DNA of 32,357 nt from Eubacteriales Family XIII. Incertae Sedis bacterium. Its GTDB lineage: Bacteria > Bacillota > Clostridia > Peptostreptococcales > Anaerovoracaceae. The notes under the pieces are model-generated. The model worked only from the letters and a program-made list of their open reading frames with translations. It had not been told where the DNA came from and did not search any database. Shown in pieces: positions 7,277-14,918 of this stretch. A program made the position numbers and the translations under genes. The stretch's first letter is position 1. Every line of letters starts with the position of its first letter. Location: assembly GCA_031278255.1 (NCBI GenBank), contig JAITKU010000247.1:1-32357 (forward strand), given 5' to 3'.

Positions 7277-9022
7277 CTACAGCGCCTTACTCGCGATCTC
7301 CCGCTGCAACTTATCGATCAAATCGGCCGCGCGGAAAGTCCCGATCTCGCCCTCCTTGCTCGATCGCACGGGCAGCAGACCCGTCTCCAGTTCCCGCTCG
7401 CCCACGACAACGATGTAGGAATCGCGCGCGTTGCGCGCCTCCCGGATCTTGTAACCGATCTTCTCGTTGCGCAGATCCGCGGCGGCGCGCAACCCGGCCT
7501 CGGTAAAGCGCGCGGTGAGTTCCCGCGCGAAATCGTTGAAGCGCTCCGTCACCGTTAAAAATTTCACATGTACGGGCGCGAGCCACAGGGGGAATTTGCC
7601 CGCGAAATGCTCCGTCAATATCGCGATGAAGCGCTCTATGCTGCCAAAGACGACGCGATGGATCATGATCGGCCTGTGCTTCTCGCCGTCGCTGCCCACA
7701 TAATTCAGATCGAAGCGCTGCGGCATCTGGTAATCGAGCTGCACGGTGCCGCATTGCCAAGTTCTGCCTATGCTGTCCTCGAGATGAAAATCCAGTTTGG
7801 GACCGTAAAAAGCGCCGTCGCCCTCGTTGACGATATAGGCCATGCCCTTGTTTTCCATCGCCCGCCGCAGCGCGGAGATCGCCGCCGTCCATTCCGCTTC
7901 CGTTCCCATGGCTTTCTCGGGCCGCGTGGACAGTTCCACATGATACTTGAAGCCGAATATCGCGTACACGCTGTCTATGAAATCGATGACGCCCATGACC
8001 TCGTCCTCGATCTGATCGGGCAGCATGAAGATGTGCGCGTCGTCCTGCGTGAAAGTCCTGACCCGCATAAGGCCGTGCAGGACGCCCGACAGTTCGTGCC
8101 TGTGGACCTGCCCCATCTCGGCGAGCCTGATCGGCAGGTCGCGGTAGCTGTACAGCCTGCGCTTGTAGGTCAGCATGGCGCCCGGGCAATTCATGGGCTT
8201 GATCGCGTAATCGCCCTCGTCTATCCGCGTGAAATACATGTTGTCCTTGTAATGTTCCCAGTGCCCGGAATCGTGCCAAAGCGTCTCGTTCAGGATCAGC
8301 GGCGTCTTGATCTCCAGATAACCGCGCCGCACGTGTTCCTGCCGCCAAAAGCCCTCCAGACTGTTTCTGAGGATCATGCCGTTCGGCAGGAAGAACGGGA
8401 AGCCCGGACCCTCGTCGTAGATGGCGAACAGGTCCATCTCCCGGCCGATCTTCCTGTGATCGCGCTTCTTCGCCTCTTCGAGCCGCGCCAAATGCGCGTC
8501 GAGTTCTTCCTTGCTCGGAAAAGCCGTGCCGTATATGCGCTGCAGCATCTTGTTCTTCTCGCTGCCGCGCCAGTACGCGCCGGCCACGCTCATAAGCTTC
8601 ACGGCCTTTATCGCGCCCGTCGATTCCATATGCGGACCCGCGCAGAGGTCCGTGAAATCGCCCTGCTTATAAAAGGAGATGGCCGCGTCCGCGGGCAGGT
8701 CATCGATCAACTCGACCTTGTAAGGCTCACCCCGCTCCTCCATGAGCCTGCGGGCCTCGGCGCGCGGCAACTCGAAGCGCTCCAGCGGCAGATCGGCGGA
8801 AACGATCCGCTTCATCTCCTTTTGCAGCTTCGAGAGGTCCTCGTCCGTGAACTTGTGTTCGAGATCGAAGTCGTAATAAAAGCCGCTGTCTATGGCGGGC
8901 CCGATGGCCAGCTTCGCCTCCGGAAACAGGCGCTTCACGGCCTGCGCCAGTATATGCGAAGCGGTATGGCGATACGTATCCCGCATCCGCGCGTCCTCAA
9001 AGTCGATTTTTTCCTTTGCCAT
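7277..9022 (-). CDS. thrS: Threonyl-tRNA synthetase, short form without N-terminal TGS domain
   Basis: RHTASHILAQAVKRLFPEAKLAIGPAIDSGFYYDFD...YAIKPMNCPGAMLTYKRRLYSYRDLPIRLAEMGQVHRHELSGVLHGLMRVRTFTQDDAHIF. The start at 9022 has an RBS-like AGGAAAAAG. Confidence 0.97.
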   Translation of the reverse strand: MAKEKIDFEDARMRDTYRHTASHILAQAVKRLFPEAKLAIGPAIDSGFYYDFDLEHKFTDEDLSKLQKEMKRIVSADLPLERFELPRAEARRLMEERGEPYKVELIDDLPADAAISFYKQGDFTDLCAGPHMESTGAIKAVKLMSVAGAYWRGSEKNKMLQRIYGTAFPSKEELDAHLARLEEAKKRDHRKIGREMDLFAIYDEGPGFPFFLPNGMILRNSLEGFWRQEHVRRGYLEIKTPLILNETLWHDSGHWEHYKDNMYFTRIDEGDYAIKPMNCPGAMLTYKRRLYSYRDLPIRLAEMGQVHRHELSGVLHGLMRVRTFTQDDAHIFMLPDQIEDEVMGVIDFIDSVYAIFGFKYHVELSTRPEKAMGTEAEWTAAISALRRAMENKGMAYIVNEGDGAFYGPKLDFHLEDSIGRTWQCGTVQLDYQMPQRFDLNYVGSDGEKHRPIMIHRVVFGSIERFIAILTEHFAGKFPLWLAPVHVKFLTVTERFNDFARELTARFTEAGLRAAADLRNEKIGYKIREARNARDSYIVVVGERELETGLLPVRSSKEGEIGTFRAADLIDKLQREIASKAL

Positions 9023-9046
9023 TTTTCTTTTTCCTTTCCTGCGGTT

Positions 9047-9075
9047 ATTATACATTGCCCGCGGGAAGATGGCAA
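9047..9075 (-). promoter_or_regulatory. Promoter of thrS
   Basis: Minus strand TTGCCA (9075-9070), 17 nt, TATAAT (9052-9047), about 25 bp upstream of the ATG. Confidence 0.6.
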
Positions 9076-9101: not shown

Positions 9102-9554
9102 TCAATGCGGCAGTTCGTACATGGCTTCCCGTTCGAGCGCGGTCACGGTCAGAAAGGGCAGACGGAAGATATCCTTCGTCGCAACGCGCAGTTTTACGAT
9201 GACGGAGGGGTGGCGGATCACGCCGAAAGCGCCGGCGCTCCCGCCGTAGACGCCCCGATCGTCGTAAAACGACACGGCGGCGGCGATGGGTTCCGTCGCC
9301 GCAACGTCCGGGGCCGGGACGCCGGAGGACGCCAGCATATAGGCGACGCAGGCGCGGCCCTCGCTCTCGTTGAAGATCATGCGACCCTCGGCATAGGCTT
9401 CCTCGTCGAAGTAGAGGGCGGCGCCGGCGGCGCATTCCTCCGCAAGCGCTTTCAAAGCCGTCTGCGCGCGCATGTACCGCCCCATATCGTTCTGACAGAA
9501 CACGAAAGCCGTGCAGATCAACAGCATACCGATGAATACGATCAGGGCTTTCAT
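9102..9554 (-). CDS. Membrane-anchored pilin-like / TadE-like protein of the Tad-like operon
   Basis: MKALIVFIGMLLICTAFVFCQNDMGRYMRAQTALKALAEECAAGAALYFDEE: short N-terminal TM segment followed by a helical region; overlaps the preceding gene. Confidence 0.6.
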   Translation of the reverse strand: MKALIVFIGMLLICTAFVFCQNDMGRYMRAQTALKALAEECAAGAALYFDEEAYAEGRMIFNESEGRACVAYMLASSGVPAPDVAATEPIAAAVSFYDDRGVYGGSAGAFGVIRHPSVIVKLRVATKDIFRLPFLTVTALEREAMYELPH

Positions 9555-9970
9555 GGCTCGTCCCGCAGCTTCTCGCTGGCCGTGCTTCCCTCTATGACGT
9601 AGACGCCCGCGTTTTCTTCGTCGGATATGCCCATCAACCGGTTCCCCGCCATGATCCGCTCGATCGGGACCTCGACCCTGTAGGGGATCATCTCCCGCTC
9701 GTCGAACGCGTTCCGCCTGTACCGCACGCGGTTGTCCGTCTCGATGACGATCTCGCTTTCGGCGAGCTTAAAGCGCTTGGCGATGTCGCGCGCGAGCGCC
9801 GCCTTGATCGCGGGCGTGAACCGGCCCTCCTGCTTGGCCTGTTCCTTTGCGCCGTAGACGAGTTCCTGCAGGGCCGCGATCCTGCCCTGATTCATCTGTT
9901 CGAGCGCAAACTGCATGATGAACACCATGATGAGCGGCAACATCGCCGCCAACACGATAAATTGTTTCAC
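9551..9970 (-). CDS. Membrane-anchored pilin-like protein of the Tad-like operon
   Basis: (V/M)KQFIVLAAMLPLIMVFIMQFALEQMNQGRIAALQELVYGAKEQAKQEGRF...IPYRVEVPIERIM. GTG start at 9970 with upstream GGGAGG. Confidence 0.6.
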   Translation of the reverse strand: MKQFIVLAAMLPLIMVFIMQFALEQMNQGRIAALQELVYGAKEQAKQEGRFTPAIKAALARDIAKRFKLAESEIVIETDNRVRYRRNAFDEREMIPYRVEVPIERIMAGNRLMGISDEENAGVYVIEGSTASEKLRDEP

Positions 9971-10034
9971 AGTCTTGTCCTCCCTCGGCACATGGGCATA
10001 AAGCGCGCCGCGGCCGCGCGGGGTTTTCGCCCCG

Positions 10035-10181
10035 TCACGGTTCCCGCGTGCGCAGTTCGATCTCGTCCGCCCATATCCCTTTCACCGTCGATAGCATCGA
10101 ATGCTCGCCGGGGCCCGCGATCATGCTGTAGATCGCAAGCCCGAGCGCCAGCATCGCGATCAAAACGATAAACTGCTTCAT
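10035..10181 (-). CDS. 48-aa single-TM protein of the Tad-like operon (absent from the supplied ORF track)
   Basis: Translated by hand: MKQFIVLIAMLALGLAIYSMIAGPGEHSMLSTVKGIWADEIELRTREP*. ATGA overlap with the upstream stop; N-terminus nearly identical to its neighbours. Confidence 0.65.
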   Translation of the reverse strand: MKQFIVLIAMLALGLAIYSMIAGPGEHSMLSTVKGIWADEIELRTREP

Positions 10182-10324
10182 GACTCGTCAAATTTGAGGA
10201 CCGATTCCATTTGACGCTTCGTCTCATCCGTAATCACCTCCGTCGTGACTTCAAACGACAGGATCATCCACGAAATCGCGATGCCCAGTATCACCGTGGC
10301 CAATAAGATAATCGTCTGTTTCAT
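10178..10324 (-). CDS. 48-aa single-TM protein of the Tad-like operon
   Basis: MKQTIILLATVILGIAISWMILSFEVTTEVITDETKRQMESVLKFDES. Start at 10324 is preceded by AAGGAG; stop overlaps the next ATG. Confidence 0.65.
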   Translation of the reverse strand: MKQTIILLATVILGIAISWMILSFEVTTEVITDETKRQMESVLKFDES

Positions 10325-10379
10325 CGTAAACTCCTTTCCGAGTTCTTTCAATCCGAACGGCGGCGCCCCGTGCCCGGCG

Positions 10380-11027
10380 CTAGAAAAACAAGTCGCGCAG
10401 CATGTCCCGCTGTTCCACAAAATACGCGATAAATATGAAATTCACAAATATGAGCAATATATTGACAATTACGGGAATGTAGATCAAATCGCTCAGCAGT
10501 TCGTCCCGTTTCTTGCGTGCCGTGACGCGCATCTCTTTCAGGCTTTTCTGGTAAGAGATCAGCGACGCGGTGAGTTCGCGCGGATCGATATCGTCCCATT
10601 GCAGGACAACGCGGATGAAATCCAGTCCGAGTCCGTCGCCGACCGCCTCCCCGAATTTCTTCGCGGCCTCCTCCCGTTTGTTGAGCCGCAGAAGCCCCAG
10701 GGTCTTGGCGTAGGCGGGCTGCAGTACGCCCCGGTTCTCCGCGAGCCTCTGCAACGCGAGGTCCGCGCTCATGCTCCCGCTCATCCCCACGGCCGTGACA
10801 TTCCGCAGGAAGCTGATGGCCTCGTAGATTTCCCTGTCCTTGCGCTCTTTCTGCAGCTGTTCCCGCAGGTCTTTGAGTCCCGCGCGCAGACGCGCTCCCG
10901 TGCGCCGCGCCCCGTCCCTGCCGCGATCGAGAACGGCCAGACGGCGCCTGACGGGCAGTGTCAGCCAGCGTGCGGCGCAGGCCGCGAGCAGACAGGCCCC
11001 GTATACGCAGTAAGTGATCCGCTCCAT
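10380..11027 (-). CDS. TadC-like inner-membrane platform protein (type II secretion F-like)
   Basis: N-terminal TM, long amphipathic helices (RNVTAVGMSGSMSADLALQRLAENRG...YQKSLKEMRVTARKKRDELLSDLIYIPVIVNILLIFVNFIFIAYF), and position in the operon. Confidence 0.55.
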   Translation of the reverse strand: MERITYCVYGACLLAACAARWLTLPVRRRLAVLDRGRDGARRTGARLRAGLKDLREQLQKERKDREIYEAISFLRNVTAVGMSGSMSADLALQRLAENRGVLQPAYAKTLGLLRLNKREEAAKKFGEAVGDGLGLDFIRVVLQWDDIDPRELTASLISYQKSLKEMRVTARKKRDELLSDLIYIPVIVNILLIFVNFIFIAYFVEQRDMLRDLFF

Positions 11028-11039
11028 ATGCCCCTCCTT

Positions 11040-11987
11040 TCAGTAATCCAGCTTCCGGTGCGTGGCAAGTTCGATCAGGATCACGTTCACGACGAAGAAC
11101 ATGGCGATCAGGACCAGCAACGTGAAGCCCGCGGGCGTGCCGAGTTGGTTCCGAAGCAGCTCGGGGAAAGACAGGCCGAGAAAGCGTATCGAGAGTACGA
11201 TCGAACCGAGGTACAAAAAGGGCGCGAAAAAGGTGATAATGCGCGAGGATTCCGCGTTCATCCGTTTCGTTTCCTCCATGACGGCCCGCGCGTCGCGCAG
11301 TTGCACGAGGATGTCCTCTATACCGGGGGATACGTTCATGCCCTGCTCGGCGCCGAGCCTGATGTTGTAGGCCAGCATACGGCTCCAGTTCGTATCGACG
11401 GCGCGCGCGAAAGCCTCCGTTGCGCGCTGCAGTTTTTCGCTGTTTCCCGCATTCCGGATCGCGAGCAGCAGTTTGAAGAGATGTCTGCCGCAGACGCGGA
11501 ACTCCGCGCTGTTCGCGACCAGCTTTTCGAGCGTTTCACAGACGTTGTAATTCTCTATCCTGTAGCGATTCAGAAAGGCCGCCACAAGACGCTCCCCCTC
11601 TTGGCTTCCGCGCCGCCTTATCGTCTCGGCCCGTATCCTGAGCAGGAGATAGGGCGTCAAACCGGCCGCGAGCGCGCCCGGCACGACCGCGGGCAAGCGC
11701 ATACTCTGCAGACCCGCGAAGAGCATACACAGGAAGATAAGCCCGCTCACGATCCGAAAGGTATTCGTCGAGTACCGCCTCTTGCACACGGTATGCAGCA
11801 GCGAGGCGATGTGTTCCTCCAAGGCGTCCGCCCGCGCGACGCGGCTTCCGAGATAGAGCCTGTGCCGCGTTTTCAGGACCAGAAGCAAGGTCCTGCACTG
11901 CTCGATACGCGCCAGCAGCAGCCCGCCCGCGAAGAGCGCGTAGAAAACGCCCGTGATCAGTATGCCGATGTTTTCCGTGCCTATCAT
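11040..11987 (-). CDS. TadB-like platform protein (type II secretion F-like)
   Basis: MIGTENIGILITGVFYALFAGGLL...EQGMNVSPGIEDILVQLRDARAVMEETKRMNAES... and C-terminal TM segments. ATGA overlap with the ATPase gene. Confidence 0.6.
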   Translation of the reverse strand: MIGTENIGILITGVFYALFAGGLLLARIEQCRTLLLVLKTRHRLYLGSRVARADALEEHIASLLHTVCKRRYSTNTFRIVSGLIFLCMLFAGLQSMRLPAVVPGALAAGLTPYLLLRIRAETIRRRGSQEGERLVAAFLNRYRIENYNVCETLEKLVANSAEFRVCGRHLFKLLLAIRNAGNSEKLQRATEAFARAVDTNWSRMLAYNIRLGAEQGMNVSPGIEDILVQLRDARAVMEETKRMNAESSRIITFFAPFLYLGSIVLSIRFLGLSFPELLRNQLGTPAGFTLLVLIAMFFVVNVILIELATHRKLDY

Positions 11988-13345
11988 GAAGCTTTCCCTC
12001 CCTCCGCCAATCTTCGCAGCGCCGCGTCGAAGCGGCGGAAAGCCTCCGCGTCCTCCTCCTCGCCCGCGATCCGCTTGTCCGCGCCGATATGGTAATGCCA
12101 ATTCCAGCGATCCTCCGCGTGGACATAGCTGCAGATCTCCGTCATCGCGACGCGGCGGCTTTCGGGATGCAGGCCCAGTTCATAGATACCGCGCAGCCGC
12201 TTCTTTCCCCTGTTTTTGAGCTGGATGAAATGAAATACGTAGTCGAAGCTGCCCGCAACCCTGCGCGCCGTCTCCTCGATCTCGCCGCCCATCGTGCGCA
12301 CGATCTCCACCGCAACGTCGTGCGCAAAACTCATGGGATCGCGCGTATGAAAGGTGAGTTTCATGCGGCGCGTGCCCTTCCGCGCCATGCGGACCGCCGT
12401 ATCCAGCGCGACGCCGTCCCGCGCCTCCGCCAGAATAAAGTAATCCGCATCGCTTCGCAGGAGATTTTTCGAGATGTTCTGCAGCTTCTCCCGATCCGCG
12501 ATCAGCTGGATGATCGGCGCCTTTGGCATGAGTTTGTGCAGCGGAATCTCCGGATCCGTCTCCACCATCACGCCCTCAAGCCGGCTGTCCTCGCAATTCT
12601 GCCAGGTGGAGAGGAAAGTGGTCTTTGCCGAACGGACGGGGCCGCAGAACGCCACGTTGTAACCCACGCGCGCCATGTGCTTGAAGAACTCCACCGCCTC
12701 GGCCGGTATGGAACCCCGCGCGGCCTGCTCCTCAAAACTGTAGTGCGGTATGATGTAGCGTCTGAATATGATCGCGTCCTGCCCGAACTTGGTCATGCCG
12801 CCGCGAAATATCGTCACCCGCGTCCCGTCCAGCATGTACAGCTCATGAAACTCCTTGTCGAGGCGCTCGTCCGGCGTCAGCAACAGGAAAGCGCGCAACA
12901 TCTGCTCCCTGCGCTCCGGGCCGATCCGCTGCGGCTTCAGGCACATCGCGCCGTCCTCCAAAAAGTAGACGCGATCCCCTATGATCTTCGCGGAACTGCT
13001 CTCCGAGAAAGCGTCCGTGAACCACTCCGACATGCCGGCCAATCCCCAATTCTCGTGATAAACGGCGTCCGTCAGGGAAGGATACCAACTCGGAAAGGCG
13101 GTCCTTTCGCCCTTGAACCTGCGCAACAGGCCCGATATCTTGTTCTTAAAATAGGAGACCTCCTTTTCATAACCGATGATGGCCCGCTTCTGGATCGCAA
13201 GTATCCTGTGCGCGTCGTTCTTCTCTTCCTCCCATTCCCGCCGGAACTCGGCTTCGATCTTCTCACAGATACCCGCAAAACTCAAGGCCTCCCGGTCGCG
13301 CGGCGATTGCTCGGCCAGATATCGCTCTATATAAAACTTTTCCAA
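11984..13345 (-). CDS. CpaF/TadA-like secretion ATPase with non-canonical Walker A
   Basis: FFKHMARVGYNVAFCGPVRSAKTTFLSTWQNCED...RSDADYFILAEARDGVALDTAVRMARKGTRRMKLTFHTRDP. TTG start at 13345 preceded by AAGGAG; frame matches track ORF 11984..13504. Confidence 0.75.
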   Translation of the reverse strand: MEKFYIERYLAEQSPRDREALSFAGICEKIEAEFRREWEEEKNDAHRILAIQKRAIIGYEKEVSYFKNKISGLLRRFKGERTAFPSWYPSLTDAVYHENWGLAGMSEWFTDAFSESSSAKIIGDRVYFLEDGAMCLKPQRIGPERREQMLRAFLLLTPDERLDKEFHELYMLDGTRVTIFRGGMTKFGQDAIIFRRYIIPHYSFEEQAARGSIPAEAVEFFKHMARVGYNVAFCGPVRSAKTTFLSTWQNCEDSRLEGVMVETDPEIPLHKLMPKAPIIQLIADREKLQNISKNLLRSDADYFILAEARDGVALDTAVRMARKGTRRMKLTFHTRDPMSFAHDVAVEIVRTMGGEIEETARRVAGSFDYVFHFIQLKNRGKKRLRGIYELGLHPESRRVAMTEICSYVHAEDRWNWHYHIGADKRIAGEEEDAEAFRRFDAALRRLAEGGKAS

Positions 13346-14103
13346 CGCTTTCTCCTTTTGCGCGAGGCGGATCCGCCCCCATCCCCGCCGACCAGCGCGT
13401 CCGTCAGCGCCGCGATATCGTCCGCAAAACCGTCCGCCGCGCTCGCCCACAGGGTTTTGCGTTCGATCTCCGCCTGCCGCCCGCCCCGGACGAAGCGTAC
13501 GCAATAAAACCGCCCCTCTTCCTCCGCGAGCCTGCGCGCCACGTAATCCACGGGATAGATGTCTTTCTCGATATAGTTGTTCAGGATATAGGCTTTCGGC
13601 ATGACGCCGAGTCTTTCGTACAAAACCCTGCGCTTCTCCCAGCGCGCCAGCGCCGTTTCCTGCTGTGTCAGCACGAGGAAGCGGTTTGCGTCGTACAAAA
13701 GCGCGCCGAACGCAAGGCCGTTGTCCAAGCGGTTGCCGCCGTCCACAACGACGAAATCAAAGACCCGCCCGGCCACGTCCATCAGGAAAGCGGTCGCTTC
13801 GGGCATGTAGTAGCGCTCCTCTTCCTCGTTGGCGATGCCGCCGAGTACAAACAGGTTCCTAAGTCGCAGACAGTGCGCGATCAACTCCTCCTCGCCGAGC
13901 AGCCGGCTTTCGATCCGGCTCTTCAGCGCGTCTACGCTCTCCGCGCCCTCACGCACGTACTCCGTACTCTCGCGGCCGTTCAAGGCCAGAAACAGCACCT
14001 TTTTCTCGGGCAACCTCTCGGCGACGGACTCCGCCGCGGACAGGGCCACCATCGTCGCGCCCACCTTATTGTCGATCCCATGAAATATGAAATGTTCGCT
14101 CAA
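13327..14103 (-). CDS. CpaE/MinD-like P-loop ATPase of the Tad-like operon
   Basis: MSEHFIFHGIDNKVGATMVALSAAESVAERL...VFDFVVVDGGNRLDNGLAFGALLYDANRFLVLTQQE: ParA/MinD-like fold with a degenerate P-loop. Confidence 0.7.
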   Translation of the reverse strand: MSEHFIFHGIDNKVGATMVALSAAESVAERLPEKKVLFLALNGRESTEYVREGAESVDALKSRIESRLLGEEELIAHCLRLRNLFVLGGIANEEEERYYMPEATAFLMDVAGRVFDFVVVDGGNRLDNGLAFGALLYDANRFLVLTQQETALARWEKRRVLYERLGVMPKAYILNNYIEKDIYPVDYVARRLAEEEGRFYCVRFVRGGRQAEIERKTLWASAADGFADDIAALTDALVGGDGGGSASRKRRKRWKSFI

Positions 14104-14106
14104 CTG

Positions 14107-14766
14107 TCATCCCTCCCTTTGAATCAATAGGAGCGAGGGCGCGCCCGCGCTCTCGGCAAAGGCCCGTATCGTCTCGTAGGCCGCCTTGGTCGCGATGATC
14201 TCCACATGGTCTATCATCGCGTTCGCGTCCGTGCGCGATTTCCTGTCGAGCGTCTCGGACAGCGTTTCGCCGCTCGGCAGCATATCGCGCACCTCGAGTT
14301 CCCCCGCGTCCTTTACAAAGGCGAGCCGGTAGCGCCCAAGGCCCGTCCCGTCGCCGAGCGCGGACGCGATCTCCACCGTATCGCCGCGCCGCAGCGCGCT
14401 GCTGCGCATGGCAATCCACGCGGCCGGTATCACGAAGAAGGATTCCCCCTCCTTCAGATAACTCTCCTCGAGCGCAAATACGTCCGAGGACAACTGCTGC
14501 CGCGCGGAAACGGGCCAAGCCGTTCTCTTTCCCACGATCTCCTTTTCACGCCCCGCGGAAAAGCCGTTCTCGATCACGCCGTCCTTGGGGACCAGCACGG
14601 TCGCGAGCATATCCGCGCGCACGACCGCGCCCGCACGGATGTCCGCGCCCGCGACCACCACCCGATCCATGAGCAGCTTACTCCGCCCCGTCGTTTCCCA
14701 GAACACGAGCCCGGCAACGGAGAGAATCGCCAGCAATACGCCCAAAGCCGGCCTCCATCGTTTCAA
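14107..14766 (-). CDS. CpaB-like SAF-domain protein
   Basis: One N-terminal TM then MDRVVVAGADIRAGAVVRADMLATVLVPKDGVI...ETL...GDTVEIASAL. TTG start at 14766 is 7 nt after GGAGG. The track start at 14910 falls inside the promoter. Confidence 0.65.
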   Translation of the reverse strand: MKRWRPALGVLLAILSVAGLVFWETTGRSKLLMDRVVVAGADIRAGAVVRADMLATVLVPKDGVIENGFSAGREKEIVGKRTAWPVSARQQLSSDVFALEESYLKEGESFFVIPAAWIAMRSSALRRGDTVEIASALGDGTGLGRYRLAFVKDAGELEVRDMLPSGETLSETLDRKSRTDANAMIDHVEIIATKAAYETIRAFAESAGAPSLLLIQREG

Positions 14767-14890: not shown

Positions 14891-14918
14891 ATTATACCAT
14901 CATATTCCATAATGTCAA
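14891..14918 (-). promoter_or_regulatory. Consensus sigma-70-type promoter of the Tad-like operon
   Basis: Minus strand TTGACA (14918-14913), 16-nt spacer, TATAAT (14896-14891). Confidence 0.85.

Follow-up and report, generated by a model that had tools for sequence, protein, structure and literature searches.

A nine-gene Tad-like operon in Clostridia

The DNA analysed here is a 32,357-nucleotide stretch (hereafter the window; contig JAITKU010000247.1, assembly GCA_031278255.1) of a Eubacteriales Family XIII. Incertae Sedis bacterium, whose minus strand carries, between positions 14766 and 9102, nine co-directional genes that overlap or are separated by short gaps and whose products resemble, in order, the CpaB, CpaE/TadZ, CpaF, TadB and TadC components of Tad/Flp pilus machines, followed by four small proteins, anchored at their N-termini, that we call s1 to s4 (Table 1; coordinates are window positions unless another locus is named). 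A preceding sequence-only reading had described these coupled open reading frames (ORFs) with ATGA overlaps and TTG or GTG starts, and all of these features are present, the overlaps joining cpaF to tadB (11987), s1 to s2 (10181) and s3 to s4 (9554). The start of cpaB is common to congeners and lies behind an AAAGGAG-type ribosome site, a counterpart of the operon promoter can be recognised at the corresponding site ahead of cpaB in four congeners, and the promoter-like site of the downstream thrS gene likely marks the end of the operon.

Comparative synteny in Clostridia, which the same reading had proposed as a check, bears the arrangement out: the order cpaB-cpaE-cpaF-tadB-tadC-s1-s2-s3-s4 recurs in 83 distinct loci, mostly from Clostridiales Family XIII, and is retained in nearly every locus of sufficient length. 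Pairwise ratios of nonsynonymous to synonymous substitution (dN/dS) against four congeners range from 0.04 to 0.34 in the large genes, from 0.07 to 0.23 in s2-s4 and from 0.25 to 0.71 in s1, and together with the recurring gene order these values show that the nine ORFs are not due to chance. Counted by CpaF, close relatives are found in 160 of the 298 family genomes that were sampled, representing 66 of 92 genera. Among named genomes a scan yielded 142 relatives; the 80 that were retained mostly bear the label Clostridiales Family XIII or that of related Clostridia, and they include Sinanaerobacter chloroacetimidivorans, Bacilliculturomica massiliensis and Anaerovorax sp. IOR16. The nine genes are shared by a second family of this order and by a Ruminiclostridium-like genus of another family with genomes of 4.1-4.6 Mb, one carrier of which we provisionally take to be Clostridium (Ruminiclostridium) cellulolyticum H10. 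The hosts are gut and sediment Clostridia; a largely termite-gut subclade has lost cpaE and has lost or changed s4, and each of two genomes carries two diverged operon copies (L069/L101 and L123/L128).

Table 1. Genes and promoter elements of the operon and its downstream border
Feature	Positions	Strand	Evidence
Sigma-A-type promoter, TTGACA-16-TATAAT with TG extension	14891..14918	-	12/12 versus consensus
CpaB/RcpC-like SAF protein, TTG start	14107..14766	-	TIGR03177 E=8e-6, SAF E=0.001, both below cut-off
CpaE/TadZ-like P-loop protein, TTG start 14103	13327..14103	-	Profile versus canonical TadZ of same family, E=1e-6
CpaF-like ATPase, divergent clade, TTG start 13345	11984..13345	-	Profile versus canonical CpaF, E=1.4e-17
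TadB-like platform protein	11040..11987	-	Profile versus canonical TadB, E=1.6e-4, 226 columns
TadC-like platform protein	10380..11027	-	Weak T2SSF matches and operon position
s1, 48-aa leaderless Flp-sized protein MKQTIILLATVILG...	10178..10324	-	MK 71/71, L13-G14 71/71
s2, 48-aa leaderless Flp-sized protein MKQFIVLIAMLALG...	10035..10181	-	MK 71/71, G14 71/71
s3, 139-aa leaderless TadE-like protein MKQFIVLAAMLPL..., GTG start 9970	9551..9970	-	MK 68/68, P12 64/68
s4, 150-aa leaderless TadE/TadF-like protein MKALIVFIGML...	9102..9554	-	MK 46/47; AlphaFold2 model
Promoter-like site of downstream thrS, TTGCCA-17-TATAAT	9047..9075	-	11/12

The assembly engine is a remote relative of Tad motors

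Pfam and NCBIfam scans of the single operon proteins are near-silent and meet no curated cut-off, the CpaB-like protein giving the SAF and CpaB (TIGR03177) matches listed in Table 1 and the CpaF-like protein matching T2SSE at 8e-4; the assignments of the operon proteins, drawn from sequence comparison, are remote. We rely on profiles built from orthologues and compared with those of canonical Tad proteins, which confirm the CpaF, CpaE/TadZ and TadB identities given by the sequence-only reading, that of TadC coming from weak T2SSF matches. The operon thus encodes both a CpaF/TadA-type assembly ATPase and the TadZ/CpaE and RcpC/CpaB pair of a Tad (T4c) system. The ATPases VirB4 and VirD4 and the VirB6/TrbL channel of a type IV secretion system (T4SS) are missing from the operon, and no T4SS gene is found among the nine.

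In profile searches of the PDB, the solved structures closest to the CpaF-like protein are CpaF (1.9e-7, positions 128-411), then FlaI and VirB11, and the TadB-like protein returns no match. Across 21 CpaF-like sequences, in which the Walker A motif reads G-x-V-R-[ST]-[AG]-K-[TS], residues K241, E266, E307, R309 and H333 are invariant, and because the Walker A Lys, the Asp-box Glu, the Walker-B Glu and the His-box His are kept in 21/21, the protein is likely an active ATPase. A tree that includes the canonical CpaFs of the same and related genomes sets the two groups apart with 100/100 support and a very long branch, the operon clade being monophyletic, and a class-wide search, in which the top few candidates per genome were scored, recovered no CpaF intermediate between the operon family and canonical CpaF.

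The four small proteins appear to begin where mature pilins would

In 71 s1, 71 s2, 68 s3 and 47 s4 loci, the best start codon lies no more than one residue from the profile start. Met1 is followed by Lys2 in 256 of the 257 small proteins, the sole exception being an s4, and the same s1-s4 pattern is kept in distant relatives whose CpaF is 38-44% identical. An in-frame stop lies within six codons upstream in 22, 31, 21 and 20 loci of s1, s2, s3 and s4, respectively, and within three codons in 4, 19, 9 and 11, so that these loci have no space for a leader. In the window, the stop is found just upstream of the s2 start, and the frames of s1, s3 and s4 are open upstream. By starts and upstream stops, s1-s4 have no class III signal peptide cleaved after Gly such as type IV pilins carry. 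Of the features expected of a Flp pilin, namely a class III leader and Glu5 (and Tyr6), neither leader nor Glu5 occurs in the 71 s1 and 71 s2 proteins, which give no match to a Flp profile.

The four proteins are nevertheless mutually related in the manner of type IV pilins, whose subunits have a common N-terminal segment and divergent C-terminal parts. Profile comparison relates s1 to s2 (E=7e-13) and s3 to s4 over their first 42 columns (E=1e-5), and within a locus residues 3-14 show 22-61% identity among the four proteins versus 11-13% for shuffles, falling to 6-11% from residue 25 onward. A DNA pattern for MKQ.I[IV] occurs three times in the entire genome, each time in s1, s2 or s3; in 12 relatives, one to three of its matches lie within the operon and others are scattered. 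AlphaFold2 models of s3 and s4 (predicted local distance difference test, pLDDT, 89 for both) feature a helix spanning residues 2-48 and 2-46, respectively, and then a three-stranded domain; judged on topology only, they have the long N-terminal α-helix and ensuing β-sheet domain of minor pilins. A weak PF13400 match is found in 6 of 17 s4 proteins. Together, s1-s4 look like pilins that are encoded already mature.

A canonical Tad locus in the same genome

The same genome encodes a canonical Tad locus on another contig (C238), arranged TadZ-CpaF-TadB-TadC-Flp(47 aa)-TadE-DUF5702, an order that the operon matches. Its CpaF is recognised by T2SSE at 4e-52, its TadB and TadC by T2SSF, and its pilins have leaders, MKNSKKG/MELVQ in Flp (Flp1_like) and SKRG/ATMVEAAVVFP in TadE (the slash marks the cut); relatives of this TadE keep the leader Gly, Glu5 and Pro11, and relatives of this Flp keep the KKG/MEMVQ form. 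An A24 prepilin peptidase is encoded on contig C136 beside PilN/PilO-like genes, and PilT/PilC-like genes lie on contig C55, these neighbours and the C55 genes being named by inspection of sequence. Ordinary prepilins can therefore be produced and processed in this family, and it is specifically in the operon that leaders are missing. A conserved Pro offers a landmark for registering the two types of subunit: it stands at position 12 from Met1 in s3 versus 11 from the cut in TadE, where it is invariant, and by this one landmark s3 Met1 would occupy the position of the last Gly of the TadE leader. As an observation on the canonical locus itself, its TadC (L006 10633-12045) has an atrophied bacterial Ig domain (aBig_2) in the N-terminal half, which is unusual for a platform protein.

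These results refine what the sequence-only reading had claimed to be missing. The lack of a class III leader on s1-s4 is confirmed and extends to the whole family. Its statements that a prepilin peptidase and a classical Flp are not visible hold for the operon, since neither a peptidase nor a secretin lies within any copy examined in detail and s1/s2 have no Flp match, and fail for the genome, which has both the C136 peptidase and the C238 Flp; none of the nine genes is secretin-like, as it had noted, an absence that is expected in a monoderm and carries no weight. It had named, as grounds for refutation, a canonical Flp and a TadV elsewhere that serve this locus; a canonical Flp and an A24 peptidase do exist in the genome, yet they do not rescue a conventional reading because the C238 locus has its own TadZ-CpaF-TadB-TadC machinery and s1-s4 have no cleavable site. 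Its suggestion that the small proteins, if substrates, are processed differently from those of canonical Tad systems is supported by the conserved leaderless starts, the missing Glu5 and the common N-termini.

Genomic surroundings

In the window's family the operon is flanked by housekeeping genes that vary by lineage, for example thrS, rpe and HGSNAT. At 9022-9055 of the window, the longest thrS ORF begins within its own promoter-like site; translation probably starts instead at the ATG of MAKEKIDF, near 9022. In the most distant loci of the family, a 134-146 aa protein is encoded upstream of cpaB (L058 5424-5828, L059 10231-10671, L153 9279-9683), with no Pfam match for the L153 copy that was tested. 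Some loci encode SLH proteins downstream, and two rumen loci have, directly after s4, a gene with a DNA/RNA non-specific endonuclease domain, both too weak as functional leads to use; the nuclease gene is L109 12225-13730 and probably L115 12298-13737 (the second downstream member of alignment A2), and its L109 version, which combines the nuclease domain with SLH and Ada metal-binding domains, might hint at surface DNA handling.

The Ruminiclostridium-like loci have different surroundings. In two of them (L149 11958-15995 and L150 438-4486) the nine genes are preceded by a TrbL_4 block (PF19597, 1e-75) that also holds a weak PrgI/TcpE-like protein and a Toprim_Crpt protein, T4SS-like parts thus adjoining the Tad-like engine. 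Two further copies are damaged (L152 6458-8443; L151 8751-10733): in one, CpaF is fused into s3 and tadB, tadC, s1 and s2 are gone, and in the other foreign genes, one of them dockerin/cohesin-like by eye, lie between cpaE and cpaF. The mobile-element or T4SS context to which the TrbL_4 block pointed was rejected for the window's family, which has housekeeping flanks and no such neighbours. Blast finds no matches to the T4SS-like genes near any operon copy outside the Ruminiclostridium-like genomes, and a TrbL_4 search of the window's own genome gave no match, its search controls being equally silent.

A proposed model of pilins translated in mature form

We propose, as a reading that we somewhat favour, that the operon provides monoderm Clostridia with a deeply diverged assembly machine of the Tad type (T4c), whose subunits s1-s4 are translated mature. 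By analogy with their Tad homologues, a CpaF-like hexamer and the TadB/TadC-like platform would drive assembly, with CpaB on the outer face and CpaE/TadZ as a hub. s1 and s2 would be Flp-sized main pilins and s3 and s4 TadE/TadF-like minor pilins, inserted in mature form with the N-terminus in and the C-terminus out and serving as substrates of the CpaF-TadB-TadC engine. With the start codon at about the position where a prepilin peptidase would cut, the peptidase step would be unnecessary, and Lys2 could set the N-in topology, a role normally played by the charged leader. Assembly would use contacts other than the pairing of N-terminus and Glu5, for which Gln3 and the invariant Gly14 of s1 and s2 are candidates by conservation. 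The machine would probably build, constitutively, a thin pilus or pseudopilus that crosses the cell wall, and its default function would be attachment or sensing by such a surface structure, uptake also being possible. More tentatively, the operon might represent a separate, anciently diverged branch of type IV filaments with mature-encoded pilins, built with neither prepilin peptidase nor Glu5, in which case leader cleavage would not be universally required.

Several observations weigh against the proposed assembly machine. The extraction of pilins from the membrane is considered to depend on Glu5 and on leader cleavage, which leaves room for a static membrane complex, and Glu5 is absent from s1-s4 across loci. 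No significant resemblance links the s1-s4 profiles to those of canonical Flp, TadE or DUF5702. Searching the PDB with profiles of s4 and of s1/s2 returns no match, and a Foldseek comparison of the s3 and s4 models with the PDB gives none at a significant level. The TadC assignment is weak, T2SSF matches being found in 6 of 21 orthologues with a best E of 0.0024. Furthermore, the idea that operon-bearing genomes lack a prepilin peptidase had to be rejected, as 153 of 153 near-complete relatives encode an A24 enzyme, and these genomes thus offer no case of a host that dispenses with the peptidase.

Much of this would be expected if s1-s4 were single-pass proteins that stay in the membrane, where CpaF, TadB and TadC would drive a static secretion, sensing or coupling complex with no filament extraction. 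Such an arrangement would account for the missing Glu5 and cleavable leader, both needed for extraction in known systems, and for the lack of similarity to known pilins, and the operon does follow TrbL_4- and possibly PrgI-like T4SS genes in Ruminiclostridium-like genomes. We consider it less likely, though the most serious competitor, because the common N-termini with divergent remainders, the Flp/TadE/TadF order after tadC and the long unbroken N-terminal helices are pilin-like, and the T4SS-like genes are not matched near any other operon copy. An ordinary Tad system, with pilins processed in trans by the A24 peptidase of the genome or with the C238 Flp as the real pilin, is improbable: both proteins are present and peptidases can serve several systems (PMC6668835), but s1-s4 offer neither a suitably placed Gly nor space for a leader, the C238 Flp adjoins its own TadZ, CpaF, TadB and TadC, and the two CpaF clades are held apart by the long, fully supported branch. 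Finally, the start codons could have been misread and a leader supplied by in-frame sequence upstream, as the open frames of window s1, s3 and s4 would permit; this is very hard to credit given that the MK start and the ribosome-binding site occupy the same place in nearly all loci and that upstream stops fall within three codons of the start in loci of all four genes, window s2 itself having a stop just upstream.

Relation to known systems and significance

The operon resembles Tad/Flp (T4c) systems in the order of its CpaB, CpaE/TadZ, CpaF, TadB and TadC homologues and in the small, Flp-sized and TadE/F-sized membrane-anchored proteins encoded after the platform genes. It differs from them in having no prepilin peptidase, class III leader, Glu5 or recognisable Flp/TadE sequence, and in the strong divergence of its ATPase and platform proteins. 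Type II secretion pseudopili and competence (Com) pili likewise combine an ATPase, a platform and several small pilins, and their tip minor pilin can lack Glu5 (PMC10191384); however, their prepilins are all cleaved, whereas no subunit of the operon has a leader and its platform would be split into TadB- and TadC-like proteins. Lists of the core components of type IV filament machines include leader cleavage by the prepilin peptidase (PMC10191384; PMC6668835), and our literature searches on leaderless or peptidase-independent type IV pilins found nothing relevant in the papers covered.

The closest precedent is a survey that reported tad-like loci with no prepilin-signal-motif protein in C. 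kluyveri, C. cellulolyticum, C. bolteae, Clostridium sp. L2-50 and D. hafniense, containing tadV and species-specific unknown genes (Imam et al. 2011; PMC3244431). Like the operon, this distant, no-Flp group of Gram-positive loci has tad genes only remotely related to other tad genes and no prepilin signal motif; unlike it, the loci are said to hold tadV, and leaderless, mutually related N-termini are not described there. The operon may belong to the same class as the C. cellulolyticum locus of that survey. The class may thus have been glimpsed in 2011 and not explained, and the conserved, leaderless and mutually related small proteins are the new result.

If the proposed model is true, the operon would allow cleavage, membrane extraction and the Glu5 rule to be separated from one another in a natural setting, and it may explain why pilin finders based on the class III leader report such loci as pilin-less. 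Its presence in culturable anaerobes makes the model directly testable. For these gut and sediment Clostridia, the operon may constitute a lineage within the type IV pilus family that has gone unrecognised and that dispenses with a processing step regarded as universal.

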